Shown: one piece after another, positions 3,998-21,375 of the stretch
Layout of the letters: each line of letters opens with the position of its first letter
How positions within the stretch are numbered: position 1 is the stretch's first letter
From: Bacteroidales bacterium
GTDB taxonomy: Bacteria; Bacteroidota; Bacteroidia; Bacteroidales; UBA932
NCBI GenBank assembly: GCA_029098505.1
Contig: JAQXOE010000024.1
Coordinates: forward strand, 1 to 64,000
Length of the DNA stretch: 64,000 bases
Direction of reading: 5' to 3'
Notes under the pieces: generated by a model
Database searches by the model: none
What the model was told of the DNA's origin: nothing
Seen by the model: the letters and a program-made list of their open reading frames with translations, nothing else
Program-made: the position numbers and the translations under genes

Positions 3998-5128
3998 CTA
4001 GAGTCTACTTGTGATTCTCTTGACAGTCGCCTCCTTCCATGCTGCAAAGTCCCCGGCTTCTATATGAGTGCGGGCCGTGCGTACAAGGTCGAGGTAGAAA
4101 GCCAGATTATGCTCGGTAGCAATCATCGCCGCAAACATTTCCTTGGCAATGAATAGATGCCTTAGATATGCCTTTGAATAGCAATGGTCAACGAAAGAAG
4201 TGCCGGTAGGGTCGAGTTCAGAGAAATCTTTCTCCCATTTGGCATTGCGCATATTCATTATGCCGTTCCAGGTGAAGAGCATTCCGTTGCGGCCGTTTCT
4301 GGTCGGCATCACGCAATCGAACATATCCACTCCCCTCGCAATGGCCTCGAGTATATTGGCGGGAGTGCCGACGCCCATCAGGTATCTGGCCTTGTCCTCA
4401 GGAATGACCGGATGGAGGACCTCAAGCATTTCGTACATCTTATCAGTAGGCTCGCCGACTGCAAGTCCGCCTATGGCAATGCCGGCATCGGCAAATCTGA
4501 GCGCATGTTCTGCAGCACGGATGCGGAGCTCGGGATAGATGCAGCCCTGGATAATGGGGAAGAAAGTCTGGTCATAGCCATAAAGCGCTTCGGTTTCATT
4601 GAACCTCTTTGAATAGCGCTCCAACCAGTCCTGAGTCAGGGAGAGGGATTTCTCAGCATAGCGGAAATCAGCGTCACCCGGACAGCATTCGTCAAGGGCC
4701 ATCATGATATCTGCGCCTATAATACGCTGAGTATCAACATTGTTTTCCGGAGTAAAGCAATGCCTGGAGCCATCTATATGTGAAGAGAAAGTACAGCCTT
4801 CCTTTGTAAGTTTGCGTATGCCTGTGAGGGAGAAGACCTGAAAACCGCCACTGTCAGTAAGTATGGGTCTGTCCCATGATTCGAACTTATGAAGACCTCC
4901 TGCCGCCTTGAGTGTATCAAGGCCGGGGCGTAGGTAAAGATGATAAGTGTTACCAAGAATGATTTCCGCCTTTATGTCCTCCTTCAGGTCTTTATGGAAA
5001 ACACCCTTCACTGCTCCGAGTGTTCCGACGGGCATAAAGATGGGAGTATGTATGTCACCGTGGTCCGTCGAAACGATGCCACATCTGGCATTGGAGTTCG
5101 GATCCTTGGCTAATAACTTGAATTTCAT
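3998..5128 (-). CDS. tgt: tRNA-guanine(34) transglycosylase
   Basis: TPIFMPVGTLGAVKG, LTDSGGFQVFSL, MGVGTPANILEAIARGVDMFDCVMPTRNGRNG; start chosen at MKFKLL. Confidence 0.95.
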   Translation of the reverse strand: MKFKLLAKDPNSNARCGIVSTDHGDIHTPIFMPVGTLGAVKGVFHKDLKEDIKAEIILGNTYHLYLRPGLDTLKAAGGLHKFESWDRPILTDSGGFQVFSLTGIRKLTKEGCTFSSHIDGSRHCFTPENNVDTQRIIGADIMMALDECCPGDADFRYAEKSLSLTQDWLERYSKRFNETEALYGYDQTFFPIIQGCIYPELRIRAAEHALRFADAGIAIGGLAVGEPTDKMYEMLEVLHPVIPEDKARYLMGVGTPANILEAIARGVDMFDCVMPTRNGRNGMLFTWNGIMNMRNAKWEKDFSELDPTGTSFVDHCYSKAYLRHLFIAKEMFAAMIATEHNLAFYLDLVRTARTHIEAGDFAAWKEATVKRITSRL

Positions 5129-16958: not shown

Positions 16959-17627
16959 TCACCCGAGGAGCAATGCTGCCAAGCCATCAACATTGTCGGC
17001 AATCGCATCAGGGCCCGCCTGTTCAAGACTCTCCCTCGGCCTGAAGCCCCAGGACACGGCAACAGTCTCCACCCCGGCATTGTGTCCAGTGGCAATGTCC
17101 GTAGCTGAATCCCCTATCATTGCCACTCGGGCTGACGCTGAAAGACCTGCCGCCGCCATTGCAGAATGTATAATCTGCGGATCCGGCTTGAGCGGAGAGC
17201 CCTCCCTGTTGCCCATAACGGAAACAAAAGGAATCTCAGGGAAGAACTCGGAAATCAGCGCCTCTGTCCCTTCCTGGAACTTATTGGAAGCCACTGCGAT
17301 AGCGCTTCCTTGCCGCGTCAACGCCTCCAATAGGGCACTTATCCCGGGATAGGGTTTGGTGTGGGCATCTATATGCTCCGTGTAATACTTTTTGAAGCGT
17401 GCCAGATGCAGATCGACATTCGACTCGTCACGCATTTCCTCCGGCAAGGCACTGCGGACCAGATTTCTGACCCCGTGCCCGACCATTTTCCGATACTCAT
17501 CCAGGCTGTGAAGAGGCAACGAAGAGCAGTCAAGTGCATAATTGACTGCTTCAGCCAAATCCTCCAAAGTCTCCAGCAAAGTGCCGTCAAGGTCGAAAAC
17601 CAACAGATTATACTTCATCTTCAGCAA
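16959..17627 (-). CDS. HAD hydrolase, phosphoglycolate phosphatase-like
   Basis: VFDLDGTLLETLEDLAEAVNYAL, VASNKFQEG, KPDPQII, MIGDSATDIATGHNAG. Confidence 0.9.
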   Translation of the reverse strand: MLKMKYNLLVFDLDGTLLETLEDLAEAVNYALDCSSLPLHSLDEYRKMVGHGVRNLVRSALPEEMRDESNVDLHLARFKKYYTEHIDAHTKPYPGISALLEALTRQGSAIAVASNKFQEGTEALISEFFPEIPFVSVMGNREGSPLKPDPQIIHSAMAAAGLSASARVAMIGDSATDIATGHNAGVETVAVSWGFRPRESLEQAGPDAIADNVDGLAALLLG

Positions 17628-17666: not shown

Positions 17667-17698
17667 TTTGTTTTTTCGGATAACTATACCTAAATTGC
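17667..17698 (+). promoter_or_regulatory. Candidate Bacteroidetes promoter for the thr leader
   Basis: TTTG (17667-17670), 20-nt spacer, TAAATTGC (17691-17698), one or two mismatches to TAnnTTTG. Confidence 0.5.
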
Positions 17699-17706
17699 TC
17701 CCCGAA

Positions 17707-17772
17707 ATGAAGAACAGTTTTATCGTCACTACCATTACCACTACAGGGCAGATTTCCGGTCTGGCTAGGTGA
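17707..17772 (+). CDS. thrL: thr operon leader peptide MKNSFIVTTITTTGQISGLAR (not in ORF track)
   Basis: ATG...TGA of 22 codons with Thr-Thr-Ile-Thr-Thr-Thr run, upstream of an attenuator hairpin and thrB-thrC. Confidence 0.88.
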   Translation: MKNSFIVTTITTTGQISGLAR

Positions 17773-17840
17773 TGTTGACGCATAAAACATTGAAAGAGAG
17801 TTAATAAGCCTGCCAGACTAACTGACAGGCTTTTATGTTT
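17759..17840 (+). promoter_or_regulatory. Transcription attenuator of thrBC: antiterminator 17759-17769/17809-17818 versus terminator 17806-17832 plus U-tract
   Basis: GTCTGGC(t)AGG can pair with CCTGCCAGAC; alternatively AAGCCTGCCAG-ACTAA-CTGACAGGCTT + TTTATGTTTT forms a terminator. Confidence 0.87.
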
Positions 17841-17859
17841 TACCTTACAAGCGATAATT

Positions 17860-18792
17860 ATGAAAAAAGTCAGAGTATTTGCTCCGGCATCCATTGCCAA
17901 CATGGGTTGCGGATTTGACGTTATCGGTCTGGCTCTCGACGAGGTCGGCGATATTCTCGAGATTACCCAAAGCGAAGGAGACGGCCTCACCATCACGAAC
18001 AAGAGCAATGTTCCGCTGCCGGATGACATCGAAAAGAATGTCATCACCCCTGTTGTACGAAGCTTCCTGCGAAAAATAGGAAAGACTGCACAGATAGATG
18101 TGTGCATTTGCGAGAAGATTTTCCCAGGGTCCGGCATAGGTTCGAGCGCAGCTTCGTCTGTAGCCGCAGCATATGGAATGAACGAGCTGTTCGGATGTCC
18201 ATTGTCAGAAGAGGAGCTGGTAATATGTGCGATGGAGGGAGAAAATCTCGCCAGCGGCGGTTATCACGCTGACAATGCGGCCCCGGCATTACTTGGAGGC
18301 ATAGTGCTCATCAGAGGATATGAGCCTCTCGACATAGTGAGTCTGCCGGTTCCGGGCAATTTCTATTGCGCCGTAGTACACCCTGACATCGTAGTAGCCA
18401 CCAAGGAGGCCAGGGAGATATTGCCGAAGGCCGTTCCTATGCATGATGCTGTGCGCCAATGGGGCAATGTCGGAGGCCTTGTTGCCGGTCTCTATTCGGG
18501 CAATATCGGCCTCGTAGGACGCTCTATGCAGGATTTTGTTGCTGAACCTTATAGAAAGCAGTTCATTCCAGGCTTCGACGAACTCAGAAAGAAGGTGCTG
18601 GATTCAGGAGCATTGGCAATGAATATCTCCGGCTCCGGCCCGTCCGTCTTCGCACTCTGCGACCATAAGAACAAGGCGAATGCAGCAGGCTGGGTACTGA
18701 AGCAGCATTTCGAGAGTCTTGGCATACATAGCAACGTGTATGTAGTCAAGGTTTCCAATAAAGGAGCCAAGCTAACAGGCATCACCATTTAA
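17860..18792 (+). CDS. thrB: Homoserine kinase
   Basis: VFAPASIANMGCGFDVIGLALDEVGD; PGSGIGSSAASSVAAAYGMNEL GHMP-kinase ATP motif. Confidence 0.95.
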   Translation: MKKVRVFAPASIANMGCGFDVIGLALDEVGDILEITQSEGDGLTITNKSNVPLPDDIEKNVITPVVRSFLRKIGKTAQIDVCICEKIFPGSGIGSSAASSVAAAYGMNELFGCPLSEEELVICAMEGENLASGGYHADNAAPALLGGIVLIRGYEPLDIVSLPVPGNFYCAVVHPDIVVATKEAREILPKAVPMHDAVRQWGNVGGLVAGLYSGNIGLVGRSMQDFVAEPYRKQFIPGFDELRKKVLDSGALAMNISGSGPSVFALCDHKNKANAAGWVLKQHFESLGIHSNVYVVKVSNKGAKLTGITI

Positions 18793-18814: not shown

Positions 18815-20122
18815 ATGAAATATTACAGTACCAGAGACAAGGAGCGTAAGAACGCCTACTCCCTAAAAGAAGCGGCTTTTCTCGGGCTGGCGCCTGATGG
18901 AGGCCTGTTTATGCCGGAAAGCATACCGCAAGTAGATCTTGATGAAGTCCGAAGGCTTGCTGCACTTTCATATGCTGATCTGGCAATATACCTGGCCGGG
19001 CTCTTCTTCGGAAACGACATACCTGCAGAAAGCCTGGAGTCAATGATAAGGAATGCGTATGACTTCAACTGTCCCCTCCGCAAGCTTGAAGACGGGAAAT
19101 ACGTACTTGAACTGTTTCACGGTCCTACTGCAGCCTTCAAGGACTTCGGAGCCAGATTTATGGGCGGTATGCTCGGCCTGCTGTCCGAAAAAGACAGGAA
19201 ACTTACCGTACTCACAGCCACCTCTGGGGATACAGGCAGCGCAGTCGCTGCAGGTTTTCATAAAGTAAGGAGTATCAATGTGGTCGTTCTCTATCCTCAG
19301 GGCAAGGTCAGTCCTCTTCAAGAAGCCCAGATGACCACTTTGGGAGACAATATCCACCCAGTTTGCGTCAAAGGCAGCTTCGATGATTGCCAGGCCTTGG
19401 TCAAGGCAGTTTTCAATGATTATTCCTTCCGTCAGAATATTGACGTGACTTCCGCAAACTCCATCAACGTTCTCAGGTGGATACCCCAATCCTTCTACTA
19501 TTTCTACGCTTGGGCTCAGTGGTACAATGAAACGGGAAGAAAACGCCCTGACATCGTAGTACCAAGCGGAAATTACGGAAATCTCACAGCAGGAATGCTG
19601 GCCGAGGCAATGGGCCTTCCTGTTCACAGATTCGTTGCCGGAGCTAATGCCAATTCAGTTATTCCTGACTATTTGGAAAGCGGAGTCTATGCTCCGAGGC
19701 CTTCAATCAGAACCGTAGCCAATGCAATGGATGTCGGTGCTCCGAGCAATTATGAAAGGATGATGTACCTGTATGACAATGATTTCTACAAACTGAACGG
19801 CAAACTCAGCGCATACTCTTACTCTGACGAATGGATTAAGGAAGCTATTAGGAAGATTCACAAGAAGTACGGCTTCATCTCCGACCCTCATGCTGCGGTG
19901 GGCTATTTGAGTCTGGAGGCTTCAAATGCCGAGGGTTTCTATCTCGCGACTGCACATTGTGCCAAATTCTCTGAAGTGATAAAGGAGGCAATAGGTCTTG
20001 AAGTCGAGCTTCCGGAGCAGCTTGCCCAATTGACCGGAAAAGAAAAGAGCTACATTATTATGGACAATGATTGCAAGGCCCTCGAGCAGTACATCAGTAA
20101 GCTTGTAAAGAAGAAGGTTTGA
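18815..20122 (+). CDS. thrC: Threonine synthase
   Basis: MKYYSTRD, LAPDGGLFMPE, HGPTAAFKDFGARFM (PLP Lys), TATSGDTGSAVA. Confidence 0.95.
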   Translation: MKYYSTRDKERKNAYSLKEAAFLGLAPDGGLFMPESIPQVDLDEVRRLAALSYADLAIYLAGLFFGNDIPAESLESMIRNAYDFNCPLRKLEDGKYVLELFHGPTAAFKDFGARFMGGMLGLLSEKDRKLTVLTATSGDTGSAVAAGFHKVRSINVVVLYPQGKVSPLQEAQMTTLGDNIHPVCVKGSFDDCQALVKAVFNDYSFRQNIDVTSANSINVLRWIPQSFYYFYAWAQWYNETGRKRPDIVVPSGNYGNLTAGMLAEAMGLPVHRFVAGANANSVIPDYLESGVYAPRPSIRTVANAMDVGAPSNYERMMYLYDNDFYKLNGKLSAYSYSDEWIKEAIRKIHKKYGFISDPHAAVGYLSLEASNAEGFYLATAHCAKFSEVIKEAIGLEVELPEQLAQLTGKEKSYIIMDNDCKALEQYISKLVKKKV

Positions 20123-20181
20123 CCGTCCTCCACCATTGACAGCCATCATTGTTTCAGCAGATTCCTTACCTTTGCAGTATT

Positions 20182-21375
20182 ATGACAATATCGGAAAGAG
20201 CACAAAATATGCCCAGTTCTCCTATCAGGAAACTGGCGAAATATGCGGATGCCGCGAAGCGCAACGGCATTAAGGTTTATCACTTGAATATTGGACAGCC
20301 TGATATTAAAACCCCTGAGTGCGCATTGGAGGCTATCAGAACCATTGACAGAGATATATTGGAGTACAGTCCTTCTCAAGGCTACAAAAGCCTGAGAACC
20401 AAGCTGGTAGCCTATTATGCCGAATACGGCATTGACCTGAGTCCAGATGAGATAATCATTACCGCCGGAGGCTCAGAGGCCGTACAGTTCGCCTATATGG
20501 CCTGTCTCAACCCAGGAGACGAGATTATCGTTACCGACCCTTCCTATGCCAATTATATGGCCTTTGCCATCAGTGCCGGAGCTGTTGTAAAGTCAGTAAA
20601 GACCAATATAGAAGACGGATTCAGGCTACCTCCAGTCGAGGAATTCGAGAAGCAGATAACGGAAAAAACCAAGGCTATTCTGATTTGCAACCCGAACAAC
20701 CCTACCGGCTATCTCTATACAAAGAATGAGATGGCCCAGATAAGGGATATCGTAAAGAAACACGACTTGTACCTGTTTTCGGATGAGGTATACCGTGAAT
20801 TCATTTATACAAAGCAACCCTACATCTCGGCATGCCATTTGGAGGGAATAGAAAACAACGTCATTCTGATTGATTCAGTATCAAAGAGATACTCGGAATG
20901 CGGCATCAGAATAGGTGCTCTCATCACCAAGAACAAAGAAGTCAGAAATGCCGTAATGAAATTCTGCCAGGCGCGACTTAGTCCGCCTCTTGTCGGGCAG
21001 TTGATTGCCGAGGCCTCATTGAGTACGCCGCAGGAATATATGGATCAGGTATATGACGAGTATCTTGAGCGCAGAAATTTCTTAATCAACGAGCTCAATA
21101 AGATAGACGGTGTATTCTCACCCACACCAATGGGGGCCTTCTACACTATGGTCCAACTGCCTGTGGATGATGCCGAAAAGTTCTGTCAATGGTGCTTGAC
21201 TGACTTTTCATACGAAGGGCAGACCGTTATGATGGCTCCGGGAGCCGGTTTTTATACCGATCCGGAGGAGGGCAAGAACCAAGTCAGAATGGCCTATGTC
21301 CTGAATAAGGAAGATTTGGGAAATGCAATGAAGGTGCTGAAAAAGGCACTTGAAGAATACAACAAAGCATTATGA
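20182..21375 (+). CDS. Pyridoxal-phosphate aminotransferase class I/II (aspartate aminotransferase-like)
   Basis: PSSPIRKLAKYADAAK, HLNIGQPDIKTP, NPNNPTGYLYTKNEM, SVSKRYSECGIRIGAL. Confidence 0.9.
   Translation: MTISERAQNMPSSPIRKLAKYADAAKRNGIKVYHLNIGQPDIKTPECALEAIRTIDRDILEYSPSQGYKSLRTKLVAYYAEYGIDLSPDEIIITAGGSEAVQFAYMACLNPGDEIIVTDPSYANYMAFAISAGAVVKSVKTNIEDGFRLPPVEEFEKQITEKTKAILICNPNNPTGYLYTKNEMAQIRDIVKKHDLYLFSDEVYREFIYTKQPYISACHLEGIENNVILIDSVSKRYSECGIRIGALITKNKEVRNAVMKFCQARLSPPLVGQLIAEASLSTPQEYMDQVYDEYLERRNFLINELNKIDGVFSPTPMGAFYTMVQLPVDDAEKFCQWCLTDFSYEGQTVMMAPGAGFYTDPEEGKNQVRMAYVLNKEDLGNAMKVLKKALEEYNKAL

Follow-up and report, generated by a model that had tools for sequence, protein, structure and literature searches.

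A predicted threonine leader-peptide attenuator upstream of thrB-thrC in a Cryptobacteroides-like Bacteroidales genome

Anatomy of the thrB-thrC leader region

The window, a stretch of 64,000 nucleotides (64 kb) from a fragmented assembly of a Cryptobacteroides-like gut Bacteroidales bacterium (G000), carries thrB, encoding a homoserine kinase of the GHMP type (17860..18792, + strand; 361 bits with NF002288 and 240 bits with TIGR00191, each exceeding its cut-off), followed by thrC, encoding threonine synthase (18815..20122, + strand; TIGR00260, 262 bits, above cut-off). These curated models bore out the order proposed in an earlier sequence-only reading of the DNA, with thrB as the first structural gene; it is the sole thrB match in the genome. 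A PLP-dependent aminotransferase gene (20149-21375) lies close behind thrC and may share the operon; in a related genome (G383), apparently the same aminotransferase gene is located directly upstream of thrB. The upstream neighbour (16959-17627, minus strand) is divergent, and a sense-strand terminator in front of thrB thus has no upstream gene to end. The thrA gene of the same genome was found on a different contig, behind a gene that we read from its sequence as a probable homoserine O-acetyltransferase (metX-like), forming a metX-thrA pair, while lysC heads a lysC-dapB-dapA set. Control by an attenuator in front of thrB would therefore be confined to the branch specific for threonine.

The leader region (17667-17860) contains an ORF of 66 nt on the + strand (17707..17772; ATG at 17707, TGA at 17770-17772) encoding a peptide of 21 residues, MKNSFIVTTITTTGQISGLAR. 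Five of six consecutive codons at 17728..17745 specify threonine (Thr-Thr-Ile-Thr-Thr-Thr, TTITTT), the end product of the pathway, so that the short leader ORF carries the clustered codons typical of an attenuator. These are directly followed, on the same strand, by GGGCAGATT (17746..17754), the Gly-Gln-Ile codons, which can pair as a protector (strand 1) with strand 2, GTCTGGC(t)AGG (17759..17769). Strand 2 consists of the last leader codons, ends at the stop and represents the 5′ arm of the antiterminator. Strand 3 (17806..17818, +) is used twice: it provides the 3′ arm of the antiterminator, with the strand-2 partner CCTGCCAGAC at 17809-17818, as well as the 5′ arm of the terminator hairpin AAGCCTGCCAG-ACTAA-CTGACAGGCTT (17806..17832, +), whose 3′ arm is strand 4 (17822..17832, +). 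By sharing strand 3, antiterminator and intrinsic terminator exclude each other. The terminator extends to 17841 with the U-tract TTTTATGTTTT (17831..17841, +), the end of which is separated from the thrB start by 18 nt. The leader ORF and its threonine cluster were thus present where the sequence-only reading had placed them. The terminator was also recovered at the predicted position, but its hairpin is of modest strength (–12.5 kcal/mol) with one C.A mismatch, and its U-tract is not continuous, with A and G in between. The same reading had considered the attenuator complete; leader, antiterminator and terminator were indeed found, but strand 1 (GGN CAG) had been missed.

A putative promoter of the Bacteroidota type (TTTG-N20-TAAATTG; 17667..17697, +) precedes the leader as a pattern match, and similar motifs (TTTG-N20-TAnnATTG) were seen by eye before the leaders of three related loci described below (L068, L069 and L086). 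Such patterns occur three times in the window compared to 1.74 expected, i.e., near chance, and the promoter pattern was dropped as evidence and retained only as a suggestion. If used, this promoter could place the leader ATG very close to the 5′ end of the mRNA. Initiation without Shine-Dalgarno sites, as claimed earlier, agreed with the window's long ORFs, which showed no Shine-Dalgarno signal: an SD-like 4-mer was present in 4 of the 37 window ORFs of at least 250 aa and in 17.6% of random 17-mers, that is, at a rate below random.

To put these features into perspective, we compared them with chance expectations. Of 200 dinucleotide shuffles, all but one folded less well than the leader region (z –3.1). 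The pairing of strand 2 with CCTGCCAGAC, which had been proposed as the antiterminator, held up with a 2:3 duplex of –17.6 kcal/mol that was matched by 0.5% of shuffles; values for this duplex in the window ranged from –17.6 to –20.0 kcal/mol. A search of the 64 kb on both strands and for all amino acids returned 17 short ORFs with five of six identical residues, among which the threonine leader was the only one with an intrinsic terminator behind it. The Thr/Ile codon run by itself was discarded as evidence, since bare runs of this kind are common in the genome (52 versus 79 for the reversed-pattern control).

Modelled switching and ribosome geometry

The RNA left free by the ribosome was folded codon by codon, with each codon in turn in the A site and 12 nt covered downstream. 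In equilibrium folding, a ribosome at the start gave the window terminator a mean pair probability of 0.97. This value fell to 0.00–0.02 with the A site on codons of the Thr cluster, rose to 0.41 at Gln and reached 0.93–0.97 from the next codon, the third past the cluster, to the stop, being 0.97 at both of these positions. In these models, the two structures were mutually exclusive and the choice between them depended on codon position, reproducing the switch that the sequence-only reading had predicted for a ribosome stalled on the Thr codons versus one at the stop. The stall site is placed such that a stalled ribosome would leave strand 2 free, while a ribosome at the stop would cover it. 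Without a ribosome, the outcome for the window was ambiguous, the 2:3 pairing winning in the truncated RNA and the terminator in the full RNA.

The same calculation was applied to the related leaders introduced below. L067 and L086 showed a switch similar to that of the window at equilibrium. In L068, L072, L203 and L204, the terminator was always favoured because the terminators of these leaders are stronger; the antiterminator would therefore have to form first (kinetic capture). With strand 4 not yet transcribed, upstream capture of strand 3 in the window had a probability of 0.89 for a ribosome on the Thr codons and 0.30 for one at the stop. For all Bacteroidota leaders, the corresponding capture probabilities were 0.72–0.97 and 0.03–0.58, and E. 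coli K-12 thrL gave 0.64 and 0.00. The geometry is in agreement with this behaviour: the distance between the final Thr-run codon and the start of strand 2 is 12–16 nt in all eight Bacteroidota leaders (15 nt in the window), an offset corresponding to the leading edge of a ribosome with the last Thr codon in its A site.

Strand 1, GGN CAG (Gly-Gln), directly follows the Thr run and is invariant in six Cryptobacteroides leaders. Before strand 3 exists, the probability of the 1:2 pairing was mostly about 0.85–1.0 per paired base across these leaders, with about 0.9–1.0 for the majority of strand-1 bases in the window. Modelling and conservation thus suggest that the Gly-Gln codons may act as a protector; as strand 1 would hold strand 2 when no ribosome is present, the default would be termination.

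Very probably, expression of thrB-thrC is controlled at this locus by a ribosome-mediated transcription attenuator responsive to charged tRNA-Thr. Under threonine shortage, the ribosome would stall with a Thr codon of 17728-17745 in the A site and cover the Gly-Gln codons of strand 1, leaving strand 2 (17759-17769) free. Strand 2 would then capture strand 3 (17806-17818) once it is transcribed; with the terminator blocked, RNA polymerase would continue into thrB-thrC. With ample threonine, the ribosome would reach the stop at 17770 and cover strand 2, allowing 3:4 pairing and ending the transcript near 17840. In an untranslated leader, 1:2 pairing would let the terminator form again. For this scheme we infer that a promoter near 17667-17697 is used, that ribosomes translate the leader and stall on it, that transcripts terminate near 17840 and that the system responds to threonine.

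Conservation of the design in related genomes

Sampling of thrB loci covered genomes of named species and 400 genomes of the genus Cryptobacteroides. The comparison with relatives that the sequence-only reading had proposed recovered the device, with diverged sequence, in front of thrB in five further Cryptobacteroides genomes (L067/G368, L068/G242, L069/G347, L072/G012 and L086/G111). One of these, L067/G368, is a separate assembly with 98% ThrB identity to the window and almost the same leader, in which the frame ends at a shifted position owing to a difference of one base. The leader peptides of the relatives are MKNSFTVTTITTIGQITSLPGEVDA, MTQNFTTTTTGTTGQR (twice), MRFNLTTTTTTTTGQFYWHG and MRHSYTTTTTTTGTGQTSGRLL. 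Their C-termini vary (GQISGLAR, GQITSLPGEVDA, GQR, GQFYWHG and GQTSGRLL) and the position of the stop moves, while the Thr cluster, GGN CAG, the alternative pairing and the terminator are kept in all six leaders. This combination of differing peptide ends with persisting codons and pairings fits selection on a cis-acting RNA/translation device rather than on the peptide. The 2:3 pairing beat shuffles at P < 0.01 for the window leader and for five out of six further Bacteroidota leaders; in L068, this pairing taken by itself was no better than chance (P 0.11).

In a different Bacteroidia family, two genomes (G687 and G790; L203 and L204) carry this design ahead of thrA, built from unrelated sequence. 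Both leaders are thrL-like with 21 aa (peptides MTTNNTIIITIITTGINLGGR and MTINNTTIITIITTGKYFGGK) and have switchable terminators, in which strand 2, CGGAGGAA, pairs with the CTTCCTCC arm. Their cognate 2:3 pairs reached –19.2 and –13.6 kcal/mol, compared to about –6 to –10 with a Cryptobacteroides strand 3. The equivalent of strand 1 in both thrA leaders is a weaker CCGG/UCGG pairing. No Thr leader satisfying the run criterion was found before thrA at 23 loci with related thrA-thrB-thrC operons.

Homologous loci without the leader had been named beforehand as an observation that would speak against the attenuator. Such loci exist, so that this condition applies in part: most Cryptobacteroides thrB loci lack the leader, including some with 83–85% ThrB identity. 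However, the leader is missing there because thrB sits in another gene context, and the patchy distribution is compatible with a leader gained or lost along with rearrangements.

The absence of the leader from most relatives, which manage without it, would also suit a plain intrinsic terminator next to a chance short ORF, with the hairpin insulating thrB and a promoter of its own located after 17840; the abundance of bare Thr/Ile codon runs in the genome points in the same direction. Yet the divergent orientation of the upstream gene leaves nothing to insulate from, only the 18 nt between U-tract and thrB start are available, and neither the maintenance of the design in six genomes with diverged sequence nor the pairing statistics of the window and the other Bacteroidota leaders would be expected, which makes this explanation very improbable. 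Similarly improbable is another route, with termination being secondary: recognition of a regulator or metabolite by the hairpin, in the manner of a riboswitch or T-box, or action of the peptide in trans. A long-range pairing within the leader (about 17717-17728 with 17776-17788), which belongs to the best fold, could be taken in its favour. Against it, no curated Rfam riboswitch or T-box family matched in the window, where only tRNAs were matched, and the peptide C-terminus varies while the Thr codons and the ribosome-edge geometry are conserved.

Relation to known attenuators and other candidate leaders

The attenuator proposed here resembles that of E. coli thrL/thrABC in several respects. 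Both leader peptides have 21 aa with many Thr (and Ile) residues. Strand 2 comprises the last codons and the stop in each case; its start precedes the stop by about 10 nt in E. coli and about 12 nt here. In both, a 2:3 antiterminator excludes the 3:4 terminator with the same modelled codon dependence. The differences concern gene order and details of the RNA: the E. coli leader precedes thrA as the first gene, whereas here thrB is first, the leader would control thrB-thrC and thrA lies elsewhere. Moreover, the terminator is weaker than that of E. coli, there is no SD, and the strand 1 formed by the Gly-Gln codons is absent from the E. coli fold in the same calculation. In Trp- and His-type attenuators, a protector 1:2 hairpin sequesters strand 2 when no ribosome covers strand 1. 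The leader described here shares this sequestration in the absence of a covering ribosome, but its strand 1 is formed by the two codons that come next after the regulatory ones, not by the regulatory codons themselves.

With 18.9 bits against a gathering threshold of 55 bits, the leader falls outside the Rfam family RF00506 (Thr_leader). The RF00506 model matches unrelated terminators across Bacteroidota at 30–55 bits and is unspecific in this phylum; the sub-threshold match is therefore uninformative. Most of the best matches checked among 399 genomes of the phylum turned out to be ordinary terminators located at the ends of genes. The matches L179-L208 illustrate that in Bacteroidota the model finds ordinary, often bidirectional terminators, and the only one above threshold in the 399 genomes (L179) combines a Gly/Thr-rich protein end with a terminator and has no thr leader. 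The Thr_leader match was accordingly rejected as evidence of homology, its score lying below dozens of unrelated matches. Hence, the enterobacterial thrL logic invoked by the sequence-only reading was retained for anatomy and modelled codon dependence, while the weak Rfam match lends it no homology.

The mechanism is of a known kind (E. coli thrL-like) in a little-studied phylum, with an RNA sequence of its own outside Rfam Thr_leader. Only tentatively, and with more doubt than confidence, can the Bacteroidota threonine attenuators be regarded as a lineage-specific RNA family independent of enterobacterial thrL, characterised by a near-leaderless non-SD mRNA and a Gly-Gln protector. For the same phylum, leader-peptide attenuators have been proposed upstream of amino-acid operons of Flavobacterium psychrophilum (PMC9723704), and leader-like sORFs in long 5′ UTRs have been described in Bacteroides thetaiotaomicron (PMC7366714). 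The available portions of both articles, which share the phylum and the leader peptides with our case, contain neither a named threonine leader nor a dissected mechanism; an earlier prediction for the Bacteroidota may still exist. Attenuation in this dominant gut phylum was suspected from transcript maps, without dissection in the portions of the literature examined, and the locus offers a concrete, testable case of the ribosome-mediated type. It raises the question of how ribosome and polymerase are coupled where Shine-Dalgarno sites are hardly used, and whether distant phyla have thrL-type leaders that agree in length and layout by common descent or by convergence.

Other amino-acid leaders in the genome were searched partially, by patterns and in selected stretches. 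On the minus strand of a stretch elsewhere in the genome (L036; G000:C25:3000-10000, about 4144-4218), a Lys-rich short ORF, MMCFSKQLKKSKKQVNSLPGLVVI, is located upstream of lysC-dapB-dapA and followed by GGCAGTCCCACAGGACTGCC-TTTTTTTT. This element is a candidate lysine leader-peptide attenuator, judged from its sequence, that could be due to chance; a Lys-rich leader was not conserved at the ten nearest related lysC loci. The thrB genes of Alistipes-like bacteria (Rikenellaceae) are preceded, at a distance of about 150–330 nt, by long Thr/Ile-rich leader peptides, most of which end in TPxGV (L133-L135, L137, L138, L140-L142 and L144-L146). No intrinsic terminator was seen in these leaders and no Rfam match was obtained in the three tested. 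They share an ACCCC-NTG-GGGGT hairpin across the peptide end, the conserved motif TTTGCCG and a further hairpin that covaries and has the loop CCNAGG, possibly representing a different threonine-leader mechanism.
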